From Nesterenkonia aurantiaca (GTDB taxonomy: Bacteria; Actinomycetota; Actinomycetes; Actinomycetales; Micrococcaceae), in NCBI RefSeq assembly GCF_004364585.1, contig NZ_SOAN01000004.1:1-64000 (forward strand): DNA of 64,000 bases, read 5' to 3'. Position 1 is the first letter of the stretch, and every line of letters begins with the position of its first letter. The translations under genes were made by a program, and so were the position numbers. Of this stretch, positions 53,281 through 64,000 are shown piece by piece. The notes below the pieces were generated by a model. It did not search any database, was not told the origin of the DNA, and saw only the letters and a list, made by a program, of their open reading frames with translations.

Positions 53281-53312
53281 AGGTCAGGTCAGGTCAGGTC
53301 AGGTCAGGTCAG
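53281..53312. repeat. Pentanucleotide array (aggtc)6 spanning a stop codon
   Basis: Six exact copies of aggtc at 53281-53310 plus two further bases. The stop codon of the sugar transferase gene (53309-53311 on the minus strand) lies in the last copy. Confidence 0.95.
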
Positions 53313-54769
53313 TAGGCCCCGGCCCCGCCGAAGACCGCCCGCGCGGTGCGCAGCACGATCTGGATGTCGCCCAACAGCGTCCAGTTCTCCACGTAGTAGA
53401 GGTCCAGCCGGACGCTCTCCTCCCAGGAGAGGTCAGAACGCCCGGTCACCTGCCACAGCCCGGTGATCCCGGGCTTCACGAGCAGCCGCCGATGAGCGTG
53501 CTCGTCATAGGTCTCCACTTCCACGGGCAGCGGCGGACGCGGCCCCACCACGGACATCTCGCCGCGCAGCACGTTGTAGAACTGCGGGAGCTCATCCAGG
53601 CTCAGCCGGCGCAGCACCGCCCCGATCCGGGTCACCCGCGGGTCCTGGTGCATCTTGAACAACACGCCGTTGCCCTCGGACCGGGCTTGGAGCAGCGAGA
53701 GATACTCCTCCGCGTTGACCACCATGGACCGAAACTTCAGCATCGAGAAGCGCGAGTGATGAATCCCCACGCGCTCTTGGCGAAACAGCACCGGCCCGGG
53801 GCTGTCCAGACGCACCCAGAGGGCGATGCTGATCAGCAGCGGCCCCAGCATCAGCAGCGCCAGGGCGGAGAAGACGAGGTCGAAGGTGCGCTTGGTCAGC
53901 CGGGCGATCCCGGTGAGCCGGGGGTAGGCCACGTGCAGCAGCGGCACTCCGGCGATCATATGCGAGCTGATCCGCGACCCGGAGGTCTCGGTGAGCGAGG
54001 GCACCACCACCAGGTTCACATCCAGCGCATCCAGCGCCCAGCCCAGCTCCCGCACTCCCTGCGCCGAGAGTGAATCCGTCTCGGTGAGCAGCACCAGGTC
54101 AGCCGCGCTGCGCGTGACGACGTCCAGGATCTGGACGACCGCGCGCTCGCGGGTCTCTGCGTCGTCGCCGGTGCGCTCGCCTGCCACCAGGTGGGTGGCG
54201 GTCACGATCGTGCCGGTCACGGTCTTGGATCCCTGCACCGCGGAGACCACGTGACGCACCTTCCCCGGGTGCCCCACCACCACGGCGCGGTGGGTCCAGA
54301 GGCCCCGACGCCACTGGGCATGCAGTCGGCGGCGCCAGAGGAGTCGACCCAGCATCAGCCCTAGGGCCCCGACCGGCAGTGACCAGATCAGGTGCTCTCG
54401 CGCAATGGCGATCTCCAGGGCCACCAGCACCGCGAAGAACAGTCCGAAGCTCGCAGCGGTGGCGACCAGCACCCTTCGGTACTCGGTGACCCCGGCACCG
54501 ATGTGCCGCCAATCCCGAGACCTGGTCACCCCCAGCGTCGTGATCCACAGCGCAGCCAACAGCCCGGTGCTCACCGCGTCCATTCCTGGCAGGCCCAGCT
54601 GATGACCCAAGGCCAGCGAGCCGACGATGACGGCGAGGTCCGTGACGACCAGCCGCCTGGCATAGCCGGTCTGCCAGCGTCGGGCCGAGGCCGGGCCCGC
54701 CGGGGTGCTCATCCAGTCGAGCTGCCGCTGGGCACTGGTGACGCCCACCGGGCTGGCTTGGGTGCTCAT
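53309..54769 (-). CDS. Initiating polyprenyl-phosphate sugar-1-phosphate transferase
   Basis: A 486-residue integral membrane phosphoglycosyltransferase of the WcaJ/WbaP type, transferring a sugar-1-phosphate to undecaprenyl phosphate and thereby starting repeat-unit synthesis. Four or five N-terminal membrane helices (VVTDLAVIVGSLALGHQLGL, FGLFFAVLVALEIAI) precede a cytosolic region. The C-terminal catalytic domain starts at about residue 290: LTKRTFDLVFSALALLMLGP, SPGPVLFRQERVG, FSMLKFRSMV, RRLSLDELPQFYNVLRGEMS, and VKPGITGLWQVTGRS. It ends with the stop in a tandem array. ATGA overlap with the ATP-grasp gene above it. Confidence 0.93.
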   Translation of the reverse strand: MSTQASPVGVTSAQRQLDWMSTPAGPASARRWQTGYARRLVVTDLAVIVGSLALGHQLGLPGMDAVSTGLLAALWITTLGVTRSRDWRHIGAGVTEYRRVLVATAASFGLFFAVLVALEIAIAREHLIWSLPVGALGLMLGRLLWRRRLHAQWRRGLWTHRAVVVGHPGKVRHVVSAVQGSKTVTGTIVTATHLVAGERTGDDAETRERAVVQILDVVTRSAADLVLLTETDSLSAQGVRELGWALDALDVNLVVVPSLTETSGSRISSHMIAGVPLLHVAYPRLTGIARLTKRTFDLVFSALALLMLGPLLISIALWVRLDSPGPVLFRQERVGIHHSRFSMLKFRSMVVNAEEYLSLLQARSEGNGVLFKMHQDPRVTRIGAVLRRLSLDELPQFYNVLRGEMSVVGPRPPLPVEVETYDEHAHRRLLVKPGITGLWQVTGRSDLSWEESVRLDLYYVENWTLLGDIQIVLRTARAVFGGAGAY

Positions 54770-55734
54770 GGCAGAGCCCGTTCGCGCTGGGTGCGGACCG
54801 GACTGCGATCCTGATCCGCGGCGGATTCGGCATCGAGGGACTGCTCAGCTGAGATCACCCGGGGCAGTCCGACCGGGTAGTCCTTCACGGTGTCGAACCC
54901 CGCCCACCAGGCCCCCAGCTGGAGGTCCACCGCATCGGGGGTGAAGGGCTCCATCCCGCCGGAGGGATAGGGGGTCAGCTCGCCGAACCACAGCTCACCG
55001 TGGAGGTTGTACAGATCCACCCGCATGAAGTCATAGCCGGCTCCCAGCGTTCCCGCGGCGCGGACCATATCCTGGAAGTTCTCCGGTCGCGGAGCGGCAA
55101 CCCCTTGGGGCACCTCATTCGTGATGTTCAGCGGCTCCCAGTCACGGTCGTAGAACACCTCCTGGAAGTCGTCGGTGAAGCGACCGAGGTCGGTGTGCAG
55201 GATATGGGCCCGGCCGTGGAAGACGAAGATCTTGAAGTCGGTCAACGGGACCCCGGAGCCGATCCGGGCCTCGATGATGAGCTCGCGCCGGGCCTGCGTG
55301 TAGGCCCACTCCCCCACGGCGATCCGGTCATAGGGACGAAGCCAGCCCTTGGTCACGCTGCGCAGCTCGTCCAAGGTCGTGCCGCGGTCCCCGAAGTGGA
55401 CCGCTTTGCTGCGGTGGTTCGGCTTGATGATCCAGTGGTCCGGCAGGCTTGCAAGGTCCAGCTGGTCCAGATCGGTGCCGTGCCACAGCGTCTCCGGCAC
55501 CTGGATCCATGGTGCGTGCTCCGCGGCGTAGTCCTTCATCGCCCGCTTGTCACAGGTCCAGGCGATTTCCGGGCTGCGGTCCTGCAGCATCCTTTGGGTC
55601 AGGAACTCGGTGAAGCGGGCCGGCTTCCTGAAGTCGCCCCAGCGTCCGAAACGACGCCGATACATGACATGGCGCAGCAGCGGATCGGGTATCGGAGTCA
55701 GCAGTCGACGGAATGACGGGTGCATGGTGGTCAC
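54766..55734 (-). CDS. TupA-like ATP-grasp protein, copy 1
   Basis: 322 residues of the TupA-like ATP-grasp family, named after a teichuronopeptide synthesis protein. FRKPARFTEFLTQRMLQDR and WTCDKRAMKDYAAEHAPW are the N-terminal lobe, WIIKPNHRSK (K104) is the nucleotide-binding lysine region, and MRVDLYNLHGELWFGELTPYP carries the Asp/Glu metal site. Such enzymes ligate an amino acid to a carboxyl or amine of a sugar or amino acid with ATP. R108 and K110 stand where the paralogue has G and N (NHGSN). It is followed by the sugar transferase (4-bp overlap). Confidence 0.85.
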   Translation of the reverse strand: MTTMHPSFRRLLTPIPDPLLRHVMYRRRFGRWGDFRKPARFTEFLTQRMLQDRSPEIAWTCDKRAMKDYAAEHAPWIQVPETLWHGTDLDQLDLASLPDHWIIKPNHRSKAVHFGDRGTTLDELRSVTKGWLRPYDRIAVGEWAYTQARRELIIEARIGSGVPLTDFKIFVFHGRAHILHTDLGRFTDDFQEVFYDRDWEPLNITNEVPQGVAAPRPENFQDMVRAAGTLGAGYDFMRVDLYNLHGELWFGELTPYPSGGMEPFTPDAVDLQLGAWWAGFDTVKDYPVGLPRVISAEQSLDAESAADQDRSPVRTQRERALP

Positions 55735-55879
55735 CTTTCAAGGGGAACGGCCTGTGGAGCAGGCGTCGGTGCGGGTGCAAGATCTGAGGGGTCAACGTCA
55801 GAGCAAGAAGTCGGCACCTCCGGCGAGTCCGGGGTCGAGCCAGGAGCCGCCTCAGACGCGGCTGCTGCGATCGGGGCGG
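55731..55879 (-). pseudogene. Remnant of a flippase C-terminus between the two ATP-grasp genes
   Basis: The 145-bp gap between the two ATP-grasp genes encodes, in the minus strand, a Pro/Ala/Ser-rich tail that ends in APAPTPAPQAVPLER and a stop at 55731-55733. The flippase gene ends in the same fashion: ISAPAGAQQPVTLER and stop. Both ends are directly followed by the same start context (cttgaaaggt, then ATG). The simplest explanation is that this tail is a leftover of the flippase 3' end copied together with the ATP-grasp gene. Confidence 0.6.
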
Positions 55880-56815
55880 TCACTTCTGTGACCCTTCGTG
55901 GCCGAGGACGGGCCGTCGATCCGACTCCTCGGGGTCTGCGAGGAGCAGTCGCGGAAGACCCTCCGGGAGTTCCTCGATGGCCCCGACCCCGGCCCACCAG
56001 GCGCCCAACTGGTGGTCCACCGACTCAGGCGTGAACGGGTCCAGTCCGCCGCCGTGATAAGGGGTCAGTTCACTGAACCAGAGGTCGCCGTCGAGGTTAT
56101 AGAAGTCGACTCGCATGGAGGCATAGCCCGCCCCGAGCGTCTCAGCCGCGCGGACCATCTCCTCGAAGTTCTGGGGTCTCGGCGAGACCGTCCCCCGGGG
56201 CGCCCCATTCCTGATATCGAGCGGCTCCCACTCCCGGTTGTAGAAGACCGCGCGGAGACCATCGGTGAATCGCCCCTGATAGGTGAGCACGAGCTTCAGC
56301 TCTCCATGGAAGACAAACATCTTGAAGTCAGCCAGCGGCCGCCCGGAACCGATACGAGGTTCTACGATCAGTTCTCGTCTGGCGGCGGTGTAGGCCCACT
56401 CCCCTACGGCTATCCGGTCGAACGGACGCAGCCACCCTCGCGTGACCTCTCGCAGCTCCCCCAAGGTGGTGCTGGGGTCGCCGAAGTGCACGGCATTGCT
56501 GCCGTGATTCGGCTTGATGACCCAACTCTCCGGCAGGCTCGAGAGGTCGAGCTGGCTCAGGTCAGTGCCCCGCCAGAGGGTCTCCGGTACCTTGATCCAG
56601 GGGGTGTGCGCAGCGGCGTATTCCTTCATGGCGCGCTTGTCGCAGGTCCACGCGATCTCTGGACTGCGGTCTTGGAGCATCCGCTGGGTCAGGAATTCGC
56701 TGAACCGGGTGGGGTCCTTGAAGTCACCCCGGCGCCGGTAGCACCGCAGGTACATGATCTGCCGCAGGAAGGTGTCCGGCAGGGGGATCAGCAGGCGGCG
56801 AAGTGATGGGCGCAT
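55880..56815 (-). CDS. TupA-like ATP-grasp protein, copy 2
   Basis: 311 residues, clearly paralogous to copy 1 along its whole length; well over half of the aligned residues are identical by eye. FKDPTRFSEFLTQRMLQDR, WTCDKRAMKEYAAAHTPW, then WVIKPNHGSNAVHFG (K101; normal glycine loop) and MRVDFYNLDGDLWFSELTPY. The motif set looks complete, so this is the likely active ATP-grasp ligase. The start ATG at 56815 is 5 bp after the flippase stop. Confidence 0.88.
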   Translation of the reverse strand: MRPSLRRLLIPLPDTFLRQIMYLRCYRRRGDFKDPTRFSEFLTQRMLQDRSPEIAWTCDKRAMKEYAAAHTPWIKVPETLWRGTDLSQLDLSSLPESWVIKPNHGSNAVHFGDPSTTLGELREVTRGWLRPFDRIAVGEWAYTAARRELIVEPRIGSGRPLADFKMFVFHGELKLVLTYQGRFTDGLRAVFYNREWEPLDIRNGAPRGTVSPRPQNFEEMVRAAETLGAGYASMRVDFYNLDGDLWFSELTPYHGGGLDPFTPESVDHQLGAWWAGVGAIEELPEGLPRLLLADPEESDRRPVLGHEGSQK

Positions 56816-56820
56816 CGTGA

Positions 56821-58392
56821 TTACCTTTCAAGGGTGACAGGCTGCTGAGCACCTGCAGGTGCTGAGATGAGGTCGAAGGAGTCGGAATCAGGTCCGGAGG
56901 CGGCTGCGCCGTGTCCGGAGGGGGCTGCGCCGTGTCCGGAGGGGGGCGGCGAGCTCGATGGGGTGCCGGGCTCGCGGAGGATGCGGGAGGCCATGACCAG
57001 GCCGGGAATCACCTGGGCGATCACCACGCCCACGGCCATCGAGAGGCCCGGGGCGGCTGCTCCGAGTCCCAGCCGGATGCCCAGCAGGGTTCCTGGCACC
57101 ACGAACGCGAGCAGGCACAGCGACATCGCGGCCTGCCGCCAGAATCCGCTGCGGTCGGTGAACAGATTCACCTGGGTCAGGTGTGCGGCCTGTGCCGCCA
57201 GCGCTGCTCCGAGTCCGAGCACCACGCCCCAGGAGGGCACCAGACTGCCGCCGGTCACGAGACCTGCCACGGGGCGGGCGAAGACGATGTAGCCCACGGC
57301 TGCCCCCACGCCCAGCCCGGTGAGCATCAGGTTGGCTCGGAGCCACAGCTCCGGTCCGGGATCGACCGCGAACCGTGGCCACAGCACCGTGGCGGCCATA
57401 TAGAAGACCGAGTAGATCGGCATGTACAGCTGCAGAGCGATGGCATACTGACTCAGCTCCAGCGGGGACCCGGCGGCGGCGAGGACGAGTCGGCCGTGCT
57501 GCTCGGAGAGCACCATGCCGGCCGTGGCCAGCAGCACCGGGAGCCCGCCGAAGAGGATGAGTCTGATGGAGGTGCTCTCGGTGAGCTCTCTGCGGCGCCG
57601 ACGAGACTCCTCCGGCTCGGAGCGCTCATGGAGCTCGGAGGGTGTGGGGTTCTCCGGCTGGTGGGCGGGGGCAGGGATCCCGCGGATCCCGATGCGAGGG
57701 TGCAGGAAGGCCAGATAGCCGCAGAGACCGAGGAAGCTCAGCGTGCTCAGCGGCAGACCAAGCGCCAGCCAGGCCACGGGCACCCCCAGCTGGCCGAGCG
57801 TGAAGACCGCCAACAGGTTTCCCACCGAGGGCAGCAGGCCCAGCAGCACGAGCACATCCGAGCGGTCCCGGCCCACCAGCACCCGCTCGGCGAGGCCCAG
57901 CGGGAGGCTCAGGAAGAACACGCCGAGCACCAGGCTCATGACCAGATCCACGTCGGGGGCCAGCGCCTCGGGGACGTCGAAGACTCTGGACCAGAACCCA
58001 TAGATCCCACTCAGCGCCGCGACCGTGGCACCGAGGAGTCCCACTGCGAGCAGCACCAGGGCGGTGCGCCGAATCAGGGCTCGAAGTCCCTGCAGCGCCC
58101 GGGTCGAACCATCGGCCCGGGCCGCCGCGCGGGCGACGGCCGCGCCCATGCCGAGGTCTGCGAACGGGAGCGCGAGCTGGAGCTGCGCGACCAGGGTGAT
58201 GAACCCGAAGGCGAGCACCCCCGCATAGTGCACGGTGAGACCCGCCGTGGTCAGGGCGCAGAGTGCGCTGATCGGCAGCACCGCGACGCGCAGACCGGCG
58301 GTGCGCACGAACATCGCGGTCCAGCTCCGCTGCGGCCCCGGGTGCGGCACCGCTGAACCCCGGGATGCTCGGGCAGCCCTGTCTTCAGCCAT
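56821..58392 (-). CDS. Wzx-type polysaccharide flippase (MOP superfamily)
   Basis: A 523-residue membrane protein with about 12-14 hydrophobic segments, for example VAVLPISALCALTTAGLTVH, GFITLVAQLQLALPFADLG, TALVLLAVGLLGATVAAL and GVVLGLGAALAAQAAHL. A polar charged loop (residues ~250-275, SEPEESRRRRRELTEST) divides the halves. It flips lipid-linked repeat units across the membrane. The C-terminus is a cytosolic Ser/Gly/Ala tail ending in QQPVTLER. The start ATG at 58392 overlaps the glycosyltransferase stop by 8 bp. Confidence 0.86.
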   Translation of the reverse strand: MAEDRAARASRGSAVPHPGPQRSWTAMFVRTAGLRVAVLPISALCALTTAGLTVHYAGVLAFGFITLVAQLQLALPFADLGMGAAVARAAARADGSTRALQGLRALIRRTALVLLAVGLLGATVAALSGIYGFWSRVFDVPEALAPDVDLVMSLVLGVFFLSLPLGLAERVLVGRDRSDVLVLLGLLPSVGNLLAVFTLGQLGVPVAWLALGLPLSTLSFLGLCGYLAFLHPRIGIRGIPAPAHQPENPTPSELHERSEPEESRRRRRELTESTSIRLILFGGLPVLLATAGMVLSEQHGRLVLAAAGSPLELSQYAIALQLYMPIYSVFYMAATVLWPRFAVDPGPELWLRANLMLTGLGVGAAVGYIVFARPVAGLVTGGSLVPSWGVVLGLGAALAAQAAHLTQVNLFTDRSGFWRQAAMSLCLLAFVVPGTLLGIRLGLGAAAPGLSMAVGVVIAQVIPGLVMASRILREPGTPSSSPPPSGHGAAPSGHGAAASGPDSDSFDLISAPAGAQQPVTLER

Positions 58393-59341
58393 GTCCGCGG
58401 ACCTGCAGCATCCCGGACATGGCGACCACGACGGCGGCCGCGTGTGGGCGAGCGCGCAGGCATTTCACCAGCTGACGCACTCCTTGGTTCCAGGCCCCGG
58501 AGGCGAACGCGTCCCGCGCGACCACCGAGGCTCGGAAGTCCGCACCGGAGCGTTCGGAGACGGTGGTGCCGATCGAGTCGATCCAGCGCGAGCTGGCCTT
58601 CCAGTCGGCGCTGCGCGAGATCGAGCCCACGCTGCCCTGATGCACCCGGACCAGGACTTCGGGCAGCATCGTCAGGGACTTGCCGGCTGCGTCCAGCCGA
58701 GCCAGCCAGTCCCAGTCCTGGTGCCTGCTCAGCTCCTCGTCCCAGGGGATCTGCAGTGCGGTCGCCCGGCTGCACAGCAGCGAGGAGGTCTGCATGAAGG
58801 TGCGGCGGAGTCGCAGCGTGGAGCGGTCGAGGATGTAGTCCACCACTGCCTCCGCGTCCTGTCCCTGGCCCTGATAGAGCCGCTCCGGGACCACCCGGCT
58901 CGAGGTCCCGACGAGCAGCGCACGGGAGGTGACCACGGTGTTCTCGTCGACCATCGCCATCTGCAGGGCTGCCTTCTCGGAGACCCACTCATCGTCGTCG
59001 TCGAGGAAGGCCACATGCGTGGTGCCGGCGCTGCGCACCCCGAGGTTGCGCGCACCGGCGGCCCCGAGCCCTCCTGGGGTGGGGACCAGGATGTGCGGCA
59101 GGCCCTTGAGCAGCGTCTCGACGCGCCCGGCGTCCTCGGGCCGGTCCAGGACCACCAGAGCCGTGGTGTCGAAGGACTGACGCAGCACCGAGGCGACGGC
59201 GCGCTTGAGGGAACGTCGTCCCACGGTGGGAATGACGGCGGTCAGGGACGGGGCGTGCGCAGGGGCCGGGCCTGCTGCCAGCTCGGCGTCGAAGCTCGCG
59301 ACCTTCCCGGCCTGAACCCTGGAGGGGGTGTCGATGCTCAT
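58385..59341 (-). CDS. Glycosyltransferase family 2
   Basis: A 318-residue GT-A enzyme, likely adding one sugar to the lipid-linked unit. SLTAVIPTVGRRSLKRAVAS is the N-terminal Rossmann segment, GGLGAAGARNLGVRSAGTTH follows, and VAFLDDDDEWVSEKAA is the DxD-type metal motif. DWDWLARLD carries the ED-like catalytic acid region. The start ATG at 59341 overlaps the preceding stop by 1 bp. Donor and acceptor are unknown. Confidence 0.9.
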   Translation of the reverse strand: MSIDTPSRVQAGKVASFDAELAAGPAPAHAPSLTAVIPTVGRRSLKRAVASVLRQSFDTTALVVLDRPEDAGRVETLLKGLPHILVPTPGGLGAAGARNLGVRSAGTTHVAFLDDDDEWVSEKAALQMAMVDENTVVTSRALLVGTSSRVVPERLYQGQGQDAEAVVDYILDRSTLRLRRTFMQTSSLLCSRATALQIPWDEELSRHQDWDWLARLDAAGKSLTMLPEVLVRVHQGSVGSISRSADWKASSRWIDSIGTTVSERSGADFRASVVARDAFASGAWNQGVRQLVKCLRARPHAAAVVVAMSGMLQVRGHG

Positions 59342-60084
59342 CAGGCCCTCCACATCAGCAGCGCGGCGAGCTTCATGGGCTCCAACAGATAGCGTCCGGC
59401 GAGCCTCCGCGGGTCTGTGGCCAGGCGCCACGCCCACTCCAGCCCCATCGCGCCGAGCCGGCGAGGGGCGAGGGACTGCGTGCCGCCCAGCTGGTCCAGC
59501 GCGCCGCCCACCGTGGCGATCACCGGGACGTCCACGCGTGAGGCGAGCTCGTCGGCGATCCGCTCCTGCAACGGCATGCCCATGCCGATCAGCAGCACCT
59601 GCGGGTCGTGCTCCCGGATGCTGGCCGCGACCTCTTCGAGGTTCTCCGCGCGCCAGGGGTCACCGGGGATGGCCTGCCAGTCGACCGCGCCGTCCAGGGA
59701 GCGCAGATGCTTGCGCACCGCTGCGCTCGCGGCCGGCGTTCCCCCGAGCAGAGAGACGCGTTGGATCCCCTCAAGCTCCGCCAGGCCCTCCACCCAGTCG
59801 GTGGAGCCGATCCGGTGCTCGGTGCGCAGCGGCACCCGGAGCCCGATCCGCATCAGGGCCAGCAGCGGCATGCCGTCGACGACGACGGCGCCGGCCCGGT
59901 CGTAGAAGTCGCGGAACTCCGGCAGGTTGTGCCAGAGGTAGACGGAGTGCAGGTTGTGCCCGGCGACGAGCATCCGACGGTGCTCGCGGGCGGCGTCGCG
60001 GATATGGGCCAGCAGCTCCTCCCTGCGCAACGGAGTGACGTCGACGTTGAGCAGCGGAACGTTCAAGGACGGGATGACAGTCAT
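59341..60084 (-). CDS. WecG/TagA/CpsF family glycosyltransferase
   Basis: 247 residues of the GT26 type, in other systems N-acetylmannosaminyl or similar transferases. LVAGHNLHSVYLWHNLPEF and AVVVDGMPLLALMRIGLRVP (conserved DGMP) are the N-terminal signatures, RVSLLGGTPAASAAV the nucleotide region, and PQVLLIGMGMPLQERIADEL and VIATVGGALDQLGG the C-terminal ones. The start ATG is at 60084. It lies 148 bp downstream of the Wzz/BY-kinase gene. Confidence 0.9.
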   Translation of the reverse strand: MTVIPSLNVPLLNVDVTPLRREELLAHIRDAAREHRRMLVAGHNLHSVYLWHNLPEFRDFYDRAGAVVVDGMPLLALMRIGLRVPLRTEHRIGSTDWVEGLAELEGIQRVSLLGGTPAASAAVRKHLRSLDGAVDWQAIPGDPWRAENLEEVAASIREHDPQVLLIGMGMPLQERIADELASRVDVPVIATVGGALDQLGGTQSLAPRRLGAMGLEWAWRLATDPRRLAGRYLLEPMKLAALLMWRA

Positions 60085-60232
60085 CTCAGGTCTCCTCAGG
60101 AATGGATCGATGGTGCAGGGGGCGAGGCCGGTGGAGCCGTGCTGGATCACCTGACCGGGGGTGCAGCAGTCGGGATCGGCCGCCTTCGAAGGCAGCGGCG
60201 GGGCCCGGAGTCGGAGCAGCCATGAAGACAGA

Positions 60233-61807
60233 TCACGTCCTGTCCTGAGGCAGCGAGAAGATGTGCGCGCTGCGCGGGGCAGCCTCGGAGAGCGCCAGGG
60301 TGCCGTCAGGGAGCCGACGTCGTCGCGCCCAGGAGAGTCCGGAGGCGCGGGCGCTCAAGTTCCGCCCGGGCTCGTGGGGACCTGCATCGGGTCCGGGTCC
60401 GGCATCACGACGTCGCCGGCGTGAGCGCGAAGACCGAGGGTCTCTCAGGCTGTCAGGTCCGCGCAGCGGAACCCCGGTGAAGACCACCCCGACGAGTCGA
60501 GCGCGGGCGCGGGTCAGCAGCTCAAGTCCGGTGCCCAACTGTGCCCGCGTGACCTCGCCGTAGCGCGCCACCAAGATCACACCGGTCGTGATCTGAGCCA
60601 GCAGCGCCGCATCGGATTCGTTCAGCAGCGCTGGCGTGTCGATCACGGTGACGTCGTAGGTCTCGGCGCAGCCCTCGAGCAGTGCCGCCATGGCGTCGAG
60701 GTTGGCGGGTTCCAGGCCCTGGACCGTCCCCCGTCCACCCGGGAGGATGTCGAGACCCGGTTCGGCCTCGGTGATGACCACATCTTCGAGGTACGCCCGT
60801 CCAGCAAGTACTTCGCTCAACCCTGCCGGGGTCAGATCGGTCAGCTGGCCTGCCCCCGGGGTCGTGGCCCGAAACCAGGACACCAGGTCCGGGTTCGTGA
60901 AGTCCGCCCCGATCAGCAGGGTGCGGCGATCCGCGTCCACCAGGGCTCGAGCCAGATTCACGGCCACGCTGGTGCGACCCTCCTGCTCCACGGCGCTGGT
61001 GATCACATAGGAGCTCGGGGTGCCTGGTGGCTTGCCGAACATCAGGCGTCGGCGCATCTCCCGGAAGGGTCCCGTGGCGTCAACGGACCTGGGATCCCGG
61101 CGCCGCTTCTCCCAGCGCCCCGCAGGTGCGCGCCGGATGACACCGATCAGCGGCGCTGCGGTGAGGTCCTTGAGATCCTGCGGAGTCCTGACGGAGGTGT
61201 CGCGGGCTTCCCGCAGGAATGCCAGGGCAAGGCCCAGGAGAAGACCGAGTGCCAGGCCCGTGCCCAGCGTGATCTCCGGCCGCGGGCTCTGCGGACGCAC
61301 CGGTGCTTCGGCTTCCTGAACCACTGCCAGTTCGACGCGGGCCTCGCCCTCGGAGGCTGGGCCATCGCCTGGACTCTCGATCTCGGTGACCAGGGCTCGA
61401 AGACTGGTGACCGTCGCGCCGGCGAGGTCCGCGGCCGCCTGGGCCTCCCCGGCAGATGCGGTGATCCTCACCAGCGAGGTGCCGCTGGGAACCGTGGCCT
61501 CGATGTCCTCGGCGAGCTCGGCACTGGAGGTTGGCAGCCGCAGTGCCTCGATGACAGGGCCCAGCACGGCCGGTGTTGTGACCAGGTCCGCATAGGTCTG
61601 GGTCCGCTGTGCAGCAAGGGCGCTGCCCTGGGGAAGCTCCTGCGAATTCTCCCCCGTGGCGGCCGAGACATAGATCGTGGTGGTGGCCTCGTAGACGGTC
61701 GGCTGCCAGGCGTAGACGCCGACCGCCACGGCGGCGGCGAGGAGCAGCGTGAGCAGGATGGAAGCCCATCGACGGCGGGCGATCCGCACAGAGTCATGCA
61801 TGGTCAT
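60233..61807 (-). CDS. Wzz/BY-kinase-like chain-length protein with altered P-loop
   Basis: A 524-residue fusion of a chain-length determinant and a CpsD/CapB-like ATPase. Membrane helices are at about 15-33 (WASILLTLLLAAAVAVGVYA) and 181-198 (GTGLALGLLLGLALAFL), with an outer domain in between. The cytosolic half has VEQEGRTSVAVNLARALV in the Walker A position, TLLIGADFTNPDL in the A' position and DVTVIDTPALL as Walker B. Canonical proteins have GK(S/T) and DAD; here R278 and G300 stand in those places. No C-terminal tyrosine cluster is seen; the tail is Arg/Ser-rich. Start is taken as the ATG at 61807, with alternatives at 61816 (TTG) and 61801. Confidence 0.85.
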   Translation of the reverse strand: MTMHDSVRIARRRWASILLTLLLAAAVAVGVYAWQPTVYEATTTIYVSAATGENSQELPQGSALAAQRTQTYADLVTTPAVLGPVIEALRLPTSSAELAEDIEATVPSGTSLVRITASAGEAQAAADLAGATVTSLRALVTEIESPGDGPASEGEARVELAVVQEAEAPVRPQSPRPEITLGTGLALGLLLGLALAFLREARDTSVRTPQDLKDLTAAPLIGVIRRAPAGRWEKRRRDPRSVDATGPFREMRRRLMFGKPPGTPSSYVITSAVEQEGRTSVAVNLARALVDADRRTLLIGADFTNPDLVSWFRATTPGAGQLTDLTPAGLSEVLAGRAYLEDVVITEAEPGLDILPGGRGTVQGLEPANLDAMAALLEGCAETYDVTVIDTPALLNESDAALLAQITTGVILVARYGEVTRAQLGTGLELLTRARARLVGVVFTGVPLRGPDSLRDPRSSRSRRRRRDAGPGPDAGPHEPGRNLSARASGLSWARRRRLPDGTLALSEAAPRSAHIFSLPQDRT

Positions 61808-62155
61808 GAGGGACAACTTCCCGGTGCAAGGTCAGTGGTCACCGGGCAGACGCCCCTGGAACGGAGGGGCGCCTGTCACGGTGCACTGCTCACGCTAGGC
61901 CGGGAGGTGGGTCCCGCATCACAGTGGTGGGCGAACCCCCGCAGGGACTACGTGGGAACCCCCGTGATTCCCCGTGGTGGGATTCGCGTCCAGGTCAGCC
62001 AGGGCACGGCACAGCAATCCAGCGCTGCGGCGGAGCCAGCCCAGGCGCTGTCGCGGAGCCAGCCCGGCCGCTGCGGCGGAGCCAGCCCAGGCGCTGTCGC
62101 GGAGCCAGCCCGGCCGCTGCGGCGGAGCCAGCCCAGGCGCTGTCGCGGAGCCAGC
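61808..62155. other. Upstream region of the polymer operon
   Basis: About 350 bp between the LuxR-type gene and the Wzz/BY-kinase gene. 61900-61990 holds a run of ggt/ccc-rich imperfect repeats (ccccgtg at 61961 and 61970 region, with gtggg on the other side) that could be protein-binding sites. From 62024 the stretch is filled by the 23-bp array. No gene is supported. Confidence 0.4.
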
Positions 62156-62161
62156 TCAGGC
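62024..62161. repeat. 23-bp tandem array (6 copies) reaching into the stop of the LuxR-type gene
   Basis: Six contiguous 23-bp units at 62024, 62047, 62070, 62093, 62116 and 62139, in two alternating forms that begin gctgcggcgg and gctgtcgcgg, so the larger period is 46 bp. All share ggagccagcc. The stop codon of the LuxR-type gene (62156-62158) lies in the last unit. Confidence 0.95.
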
Positions 62162-64000
62162 GCTGCGCAGACCGTCCTCGGCCTCGTCCTGGAGCATCCG
62201 ACGCAGCGCATGACGCGAGTCCAGCGCGAGCTTTCCCAGCGCGTTCGCCACGTGGTACTCCACGGTGCGCACCGAGAGGACGAGCTCCTCGGCCACGTCC
62301 TTATTGGACAGACCGTGCCCGACCATCAGCGCGATCTCCCGCTCGCGGGCGGTGAGCGCGGCCAGCGCGAAGCGCGCCTTGGAGCTGAGTCCTGCGGGCA
62401 GGTCGATCATCCTCACGCGTCCCACGGCACCTGGGAGTGCGCCCCCCTTGCGCAGCGTCCGGAAGACCTCATCGGCCTGATGGAAGAGCCCCTCCGCCCC
62501 GCACCCCTGGAACATGGACCCGGCCCAGAGCACCCATTCAGAGCTCTGCTCGACCTTCTCCTGCAGTGAGTCCATGCCGAGCACCACGCACTGCGCCAGG
62601 TCCAGTGCGAGGAGTCCGCGGTAGATGCTCAGCGCTCCGCCGTCACCGGAGACCTGGCTGGATTTCAGCGCCGGGATCCCGGAGACCGTGGTCATCGCCG
62701 CGCTGAGGTGTTCATAGGCTGTGACGTGTTTTCCGGCCCCCATGGCGGCCAGTCCGCGCAGGTGACGCAGCACGTAGTCGCGCTGTGCGGCGGAGGAGTG
62801 CTCATCAGCACGAACCTTGGTGATCAGTGCCGGCAGCGCCTGGGCCCGGCCGCTGTGGAACAGCGAGCGGCCGAGCAGCACTGCAGGGGTGATCGCGCGG
62901 GACCAGATGTTGAGCTCGGCCTGCAGCCCGAGGACGCTGCTGATCACGCGCTCATGGTCCTGGGCGCACGTGGCCCCCCAGGCCTCGACGAATCCTCGGC
63001 CCGCGCGCCCGAGACTGGTGTCGGTCATGCGATGGATGTGTGCGCGCAGGTCGAAGGGCCAGTTCTGCCCCTCCCGCTCCCCGCGCGCCGCGGGCACCAG
63101 GTGGGCAGCGTTGAACGCCACCGGTGCCAGGTTGTCTTCGCTGATGTCCAGCACCTCCGCGGCGGCCGACTCGGCGAACCCCTGGGCCTCGCTCCACATC
63201 CCGGCCTCGAAGAGCAGGTAGGTGAGATGGATCTCGGCGTGCGCCAGTGCGCGACGATTTCGTCCGGGCCAGTTCTCGACGGCGGAGATCAGGTCCGAGT
63301 AGGCCTCGGAGAGGTGACCGGTGGTACGCAGCAGTGCGCCGCGCGCAACCAGCAGCACCAGCTGCGCAGACTCCGTGCCGGGAATCTGGCGAACCTCGTC
63401 GAGGAGCACCTCGACCTCCTGGGAGAACAGCTCGGGCTCAGCGGCATCCATGCCCTCCAGCAGTCGCCAGAGCTGCAGGCTGACCCGCAGTCCACGTGTC
63501 TCCGCCAGCAGCTGCTCGGGCGTAGCCATCCGGATGCGCAGGGTCGGATCCCCGGCTTGGAGGCGTTCTTCGAGCAGCTGCAGCACCTCGACGGTTCGTT
63601 CAGCGATCTTGAAGAGCTGCCAGTAGGATCCGCGGAGACCTGTGGTGCGCGAAGCGCTCAAGACCGTGTCGGCATAGCACAACAGTGCCTTCGGCGAGGC
63701 CTCCTCCAGACCGGCGCCGCCGGCCAGAAAGCCCAGTGTGCTCTGCAGATCTCCGCGCATCAGACTCTCGCGGGCCAGGATTCCGCGGCGCAGCACCGGA
63801 TGCACGTTCTCGTGGCTCTGCGCCCAGCTGGTCGTCGAGTCGATGGCGAACCGGGTGCCGGCGCGCATCGCGGCAAAGGTCAGGGCCTCCAGGGTGTCCC
63901 CTGATCGGTCCACCTCGAAGGCGAGCCGGCTCAGCTCGAGGGTCTCGGCATGATCGCTGGTCCGGCTCGCGGTGCGCGCTGCGTCCGTGAGCGCTGCAAC
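62156..64000 (-). CDS. LuxR-family transcriptional regulator, 5' end outside the window
   Basis: The frame stays open to the window edge, so the start lies beyond position 64000; at least 614 residues are present. The C-terminal ~65 residues are a LuxR-type HTH (LTAREREIALMVGHGLSNKD, VAEELVLSVRTVEYHVANAL). The rest is helical with TPR/MalT-like character (for example FKIAERTVEVLQLLEERLQA, YSDLISAVENWPG). It is on the same strand as and upstream of the polymer operon, which makes it a candidate regulator. No upstream ATPase motif is seen in the visible part. Confidence 0.85.
   Translation of the reverse strand, partial: VAALTDAARTASRTSDHAETLELSRLAFEVDRSGDTLEALTFAAMRAGTRFAIDSTTSWAQSHENVHPVLRRGILARESLMRGDLQSTLGFLAGGAGLEEASPKALLCYADTVLSASRTTGLRGSYWQLFKIAERTVEVLQLLEERLQAGDPTLRIRMATPEQLLAETRGLRVSLQLWRLLEGMDAAEPELFSQEVEVLLDEVRQIPGTESAQLVLLVARGALLRTTGHLSEAYSDLISAVENWPGRNRRALAHAEIHLTYLLFEAGMWSEAQGFAESAAAEVLDISEDNLAPVAFNAAHLVPAARGEREGQNWPFDLRAHIHRMTDTSLGRAGRGFVEAWGATCAQDHERVISSVLGLQAELNIWSRAITPAVLLGRSLFHSGRAQALPALITKVRADEHSSAAQRDYVLRHLRGLAAMGAGKHVTAYEHLSAAMTTVSGIPALKSSQVSGDGGALSIYRGLLALDLAQCVVLGMDSLQEKVEQSSEWVLWAGSMFQGCGAEGLFHQADEVFRTLRKGGALPGAVGRVRMIDLPAGLSSKARFALAALTAREREIALMVGHGLSNKDVAEELVLSVRTVEYHVANALGKLALDSRHALRRMLQDEAEDGLRSA

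Follow-up and report, generated by a model that had tools for sequence, protein, structure and literature searches.

Organization of the polysaccharide locus

The window, by which we mean the whole 64,000-nucleotide stretch that was analyzed, lies within contig C4 of the 2.95-Mb genome of Nesterenkonia aurantiaca. A profile search and the reading frames revealed seven genes in the same direction on the minus strand of the window, from 61816 to 53309. Their order is wzz/autokinase-like, wecG-like GT26, GT2, flippase, tupA1, tupA2, and initiating glycosylphosphotransferase. These genes and their upstream neighbor are listed below.

62156 to 63913, minus strand: LuxR-type regulator, the upstream neighbor (PF00196, 53 bits)
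60233 to 61816, minus strand: Wzz chain-length protein with a fused ATPase domain that is autokinase-like but degenerate (Pfam Wzz, 34.6 bits, plus an AAA domain)
59341 to 60150, minus strand: WecG/TagA/CpsF (GT26) glycosyltransferase (PF03808, 110.6 bits)
58385 to 59341, minus strand: GT2 glycosyltransferase (PF00535, 40 bits)
56821 to 58392, minus strand: putative MOP-superfamily flippase, Wzx-like (orthologues match PF01943; predicted fold)
55880 to 56815, minus strand: TupA1, divergent TupA-like ATP-grasp ligase, the flippase-proximal copy (PF14305, 88.9 bits)
54766 to 55734, minus strand: TupA2, conserved TupA-like ATP-grasp ligase (PF14305, 104.9 bits)
53309 to 54769, minus strand: polyprenyl glycosylphosphotransferase, which would start the repeat unit (PF02397, Bac_transf, 229 bits)

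An earlier note on this DNA had listed an initiating transferase, two glycosyltransferases, a flippase, a chain-length protein, and two TupA-like ligases, and all of them were recovered by profiles or fold at 53309 to 61816 on the minus strand. The span that it gave, 53309 to 61807, stands with wzz starting at the ATG at 61807, but the TTG at 61816 is a second possible start. The open frame of the GT2 gene extends back to 59437, and its start is likely the ATG at 59341, which overlaps the wecG stop. The wecG/GT2 junction is a TGATG overlap, the GT2 and flippase genes overlap by 8 bp, tupA2 and the initiating transferase gene overlap by 4 bp, and only 5 bp separate the flippase gene from tupA1. 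These overlaps and the 5-bp gap argue for one transcript; the spacing from tupA1 to tupA2 is 145 bp. The order of the operon was kept in related genomes, and the dN/dS values of its genes (0.07 to 0.33) indicated purifying selection. Therefore, the cluster is far beyond chance. Wzy and epimerase genes, which the earlier note had proposed to seek upstream, did not turn up: the neighbor there is the LuxR-type regulator, and the cluster holds no Wzy. The regulator and the operon were syntenic in close relatives, and the regulator may control the operon. No consensus sigma-70 promoter was found, and terminators were at chance level. Between the end of the LuxR gene and the operon start, a 46-bp tandem repeat was present at 62022 to 62167 (3.2 copies at 96%); by exact search, it was absent from the fetched loci except the window genome's own (L005).

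The initiating transferase scored 406 bits against NCBIfam TIGR03025 (cutoff, 296). It shares one cluster with glycosyltransferases, a flippase, and Wzz, the combination that marks a Wzx/Wzy pathway. The flippase itself matched no Pfam family and nothing in PHROGs. Two of its orthologues matched Polysacc_synt (37 and 26 bits; cutoff, 28), and the fold of its model (pLDDT 69.6) matched those of MATE transporters, MurJ, and WzxE (TMt 0.75), from which it is predicted to belong to the MOP superfamily. The WecG-family enzyme may add the second sugar; as for its donor, every donor-specific NCBIfam model scored below its cutoff. In the Wzz protein, EGRTS replaces the GK[ST] of the Walker A motif, and the last 40 residues contain no tyrosine. 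In two relatives, a HEPN_Apea-like protein with a subthreshold match is encoded between the initiating transferase gene and wzz (L039, 11703 to 13085, in G003, and L040).

Copy number and divergence of the TupA-like ligases

The gene order recurs in relatives, where the earlier note had suggested looking for it: the core operon occupies the same locus in 14 of 30 genus genomes. Each of these 14 operons has 0, 1, 2, or 3 TupA genes. The rest of the operon was kept with no TupA gene in G011, G015, G022, and G027; G020, G028, G003, G009, and G006 have one copy, and G023 has a broken single copy. Two copies are found in G000 (the window genome), G017, and G021, and three are found in G018. In an operon tree built from four shared proteins, the zero-TupA state formed one clade and the two-or-more state formed another. 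Judging by gene content, the ligase is an optional decoration, dispensable to the pathway, because four relatives keep the operon without it. In G023, a metagenome-assembled genome, the operon looks decayed, with tupA, the flippase gene, and the initiating transferase gene broken into frames (L042, 7786 to 12943).

This dispensability weakens a strict analogy with the teichuronopeptide of alkaliphilic Bacillus, on which the earlier note had based its proposal of a peptidyl or amino-acyl polysaccharide. PF14305, a family built around TupA, is common to both systems. However, the Bacillus polymer combines polyglucuronate with a polyamino acid, whereas in Nesterenkonia TupA can be absent and the cluster lacks a uronate pathway. 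The proposal of a surface polysaccharide operon with TupA-like ligases was borne out by families, fold, synteny, and selection, but that of a polyamino acid conjugate was not, given the relatives without TupA, the lack of a gene for a peptide polymer, and the joining of a small amino alcohol phosphate, rather than an amino acid, to a uronic acid by the characterized ligase Cj1438C (see below). By analogy, a peptidyl or amino-acyl polysaccharide is plausible in general terms. A teichuronopeptide-like polymer in particular, with ligases that assemble a chain of amino acids or attach one, would suit the name of the family and the tandem pair of ligases, as linked ATP-grasp ligases often catalyze successive ligations (PMC4431377). 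We nevertheless consider it quite improbable, since several relatives have a single copy besides the four that have none, and since no uronate-making gene accompanies the ligases. It is safer to assume a single amino acid or amine attached to each unit by an amide bond.

Both window copies exceed the PF14305 gathering cutoff of 25 bits. A sequence search found no solved TupA relative with a meaningful E-value. The TupA2 model (pLDDT 76.5) has a predicted ATP-grasp fold and most resembled D-Ala ligases and LysX (Foldseek E of ~1e-6; VIA Z of ~12, rmsd of ~3.4, ~190 to 220 residues). Residues K104, D166, K168, R238, D240, and E252 (TupA2 numbering) are kept in both copies, as are the catalytic-type motifs, namely, the IKP lysine, the D-x-K lysine, R-x-D, and E-L-T; we presume the roles of the six residues by motif analogy to D-Ala ligase. 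The two copies have diverged unequally. Together with its nearest relative, the window TupA2 differs at 1 of 92 sites that are invariant in all other copies, and TupA1 differs at 8 of 96. Three of the eight changes in TupA1 (G251S, P257H, and S258G) adjoin the catalytic-type glutamate, and in G018 and G021 the flippase-proximal copy has lost the conserved D-x-K lysine (K168N). Between the window genome and G017, dN/dS was 0.14 for TupA2 and 0.20 for TupA1, both indicating purifying selection. From these differences in invariant sites and dN/dS, one copy appears to be held while the other drifts or specializes. The duplications are confined to a single Nesterenkonia clade, inside which the branching of the copies is partly unresolved. 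The window TupA1 (55734 to 55882 region) is 54 residues shorter than its G017 orthologue, and the missing tail is of low complexity.

Tandem TupA genes were also found in Geodermatophilaceae, outside polysaccharide operons. In Blastococcus, tandem TupA-like genes (L121, L122, L127, and L135) lie outside any polysaccharide operon and adjoin apparent glycogen/trehalose genes, recognized by eye from the translations. Tandem TupA was therefore rejected as a mark of surface polymers.

Local and unlinked polymerase genes

A hidden Wzy in the window cluster was rejected because tblastn gave no match there and the gap of ~82 bp between wzz and wecG leaves no room for one. In 8 of the 14 operon genomes, a Wzy-like gene lies inside the cluster. 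It is 1.2 kb long, encodes a polytopic protein, and separates wzz from wecG except in G003 and G009, where it lies downstream of the operon; its products match Wzy_C (15 to 25 bits; cutoff, 31.7) or Wzy only weakly. The local gene is missing at the locus from G000, G017, G018, G021, G028, and G023, which on the four-protein tree corresponds to loss on at least two lineages (about two independent losses). A genome-wide search of G000, G017, and G018 found no orthologue of the relatives' local Wzy.

The lack of wzy in the cluster, and of such orthologues in these three genomes, could mean that no long polymer is made and that, after the loss of wzy, a single decorated oligosaccharide is moved to protein, lipid, or wall. 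We regard this as rather improbable because the operon's Wzz gene is kept in four of the six genomes without a local wzy and because another polymerase is present. An unlinked orthologous Wzy_C protein is encoded in all six of these genomes and in G011, which carries both the local and the unlinked genes; the rest of the 58 genomes searched lack it. The unlinked gene thus accompanied 6 of 6 operons without a local wzy versus 1 of 8 that have one (Fisher P = 0.005), and none of the 16 genus genomes that lack the operon carried it (P = 0.002). These P values overstate the case because the genomes are related and the local gene was lost only about twice. We infer that the operon polymer is joined in trans by the unlinked Wzy.

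In the window genome, this Wzy (G000:C1:428667-429959; Wzy_C, 61 bits, against the same cutoff) belongs to a LuxR-Wzz-low-molecular-weight phosphatase-Wzy module without glycosyltransferases. The other unlinked modules retain the Wzz-Wzy pair, and the phosphatase was detected in all but that of G011. Walker A is canonical in the unlinked Wzz/kinase and degenerate in that of the operon. The tail tyrosine missing from the local Wzz is present in the unlinked copy. G028 offers the simplest background: it has no initiating transferase besides that of the operon and no strong Wzy_C protein besides the unlinked one. Trans use is less clear-cut in the window genome, which encodes a second initiating transferase (C14) and a further Wzy_C protein (C13).

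On one branch of the tree, the tandem TupA duplication and the loss of the local wzy coincide. The duplicated ligases might have taken over part of the polymer joining, with units amide-linked rather than connected by Wzy-made glycosidic bonds, but we give this idea very little credence.

Proposed pathway and its precedents

With slightly better than even confidence, we propose that the operon makes a Wzx/Wzy-type polysaccharide, with amidation of a uronate on the lipid-linked unit before export and polymerization in trans. The initiating transferase would load a sugar phosphate onto undecaprenyl phosphate, and the WecG-family and GT2 enzymes would extend the chain. One sugar would be a uronic acid, with ManNAcA as the leading candidate. 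The TupA-like enzymes would spend ATP to join the carboxylate of the uronate in amide linkage to a small amine, with an amino acid as the likeliest candidate; this step probably precedes export of the lipid-linked unit by the flippase. TupA2 would keep the ancestral activity, and TupA1, as the diverged duplicate, would use another amine or acceptor. Polymerization would be carried out in trans by the Wzy of the Wzz-low-molecular-weight phosphatase-Wzy module, this distant Wzy replacing the local gene lost in the window lineage.

Among the assigned genes at 53.3 to 63.9 kb, there was no sugar-nucleotide-making gene, epimerase, sugar dehydrogenase, or other gene for uronate supply. A UDP-ManNAc dehydrogenase (NCBIfam equivalog, 501 bits; cutoff, 459) is encoded at C4:99837-101069, 36 kb past the window end, and UDP-ManNAcA is therefore probably available in the cell. 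This dehydrogenase was rejected as an operon-specific partner, because it is common across the genus irrespective of the operon. Micrococcus luteus belongs to the same bacterial family as Nesterenkonia. According to the abstract of PMC3005890, which mentions no amidation, its teichuronic acid contains ManNAcA; compared by product alone, a ManNAcA-containing polymer is the likely product type of the Nesterenkonia operon. No relevant paper on Nesterenkonia wall polymers was found in the open-access literature searched.

The amidation step resembles one in the capsule (surface polysaccharide) pathway of Campylobacter jejuni HS:2 and HS:19, a likeness that rests on the published description of the Cj1438C domain as TupA-like. 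Cj1438C and HS19.11C are characterized TupA-like ATP-grasp ligases that amidate a glycosidic glucuronate, already in the chain, with serinol-phosphate or ethanolamine-phosphate (PMC11800397, PMC11800379, PMC13276843). UDP-GlcA is no substrate for Cj1438C (PMC11800397), and by analogy we placed amidation on the lipid-linked unit. The two systems differ in that the Campylobacter ligase is fused to a GT2 enzyme, whereas the Nesterenkonia ligases are free-standing and duplicated, and export in Campylobacter is thought to depend on an ABC transporter, as against a Wzx/Wzy-type system in Nesterenkonia. The Campylobacter substrates also suggest an ethanolamine- or serinol-like amine as an alternative to an amino acid. 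This is possible though unlikely in our view: amine-making genes lie in the Campylobacter cluster, but the seven operon genes, all otherwise assigned, include no serinol-phosphate or ethanolamine-phosphate companion (transaminase, decarboxylase, or phosphatase), and an amino acid or another amine supplied by general metabolism requires no additional gene. For the preferred amino acid, the Vibrio alginolyticus exopolysaccharide, which bears Ala and Ser amide-linked to uronic acids (PMC4663550), is a chemical precedent for two ligases, compared by structure alone.

The pathway type is already known; what is new is the series of zero to three copies, the unequal divergence of the duplicated ligases, and a polymerase that appears to have been relocated. 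With zero to three copies at one locus in one genus, the operon provides a clean natural series for the effect of a TupA-like ligase on a polymer. It is also a polysaccharide operon in which relocation of the polymerase to a distinct chain-length/polymerization module can be tested. The window genome also has a further TupA-like protein with a coiled-coil-like N terminus (L007, 4361 to 5797; G000:C4:104361-105797). Its gene adjoins large GT2 genes, the UDP-ManNAc dehydrogenase gene, and a predicted acyltransferase gene, which form a second, different surface-polymer region.
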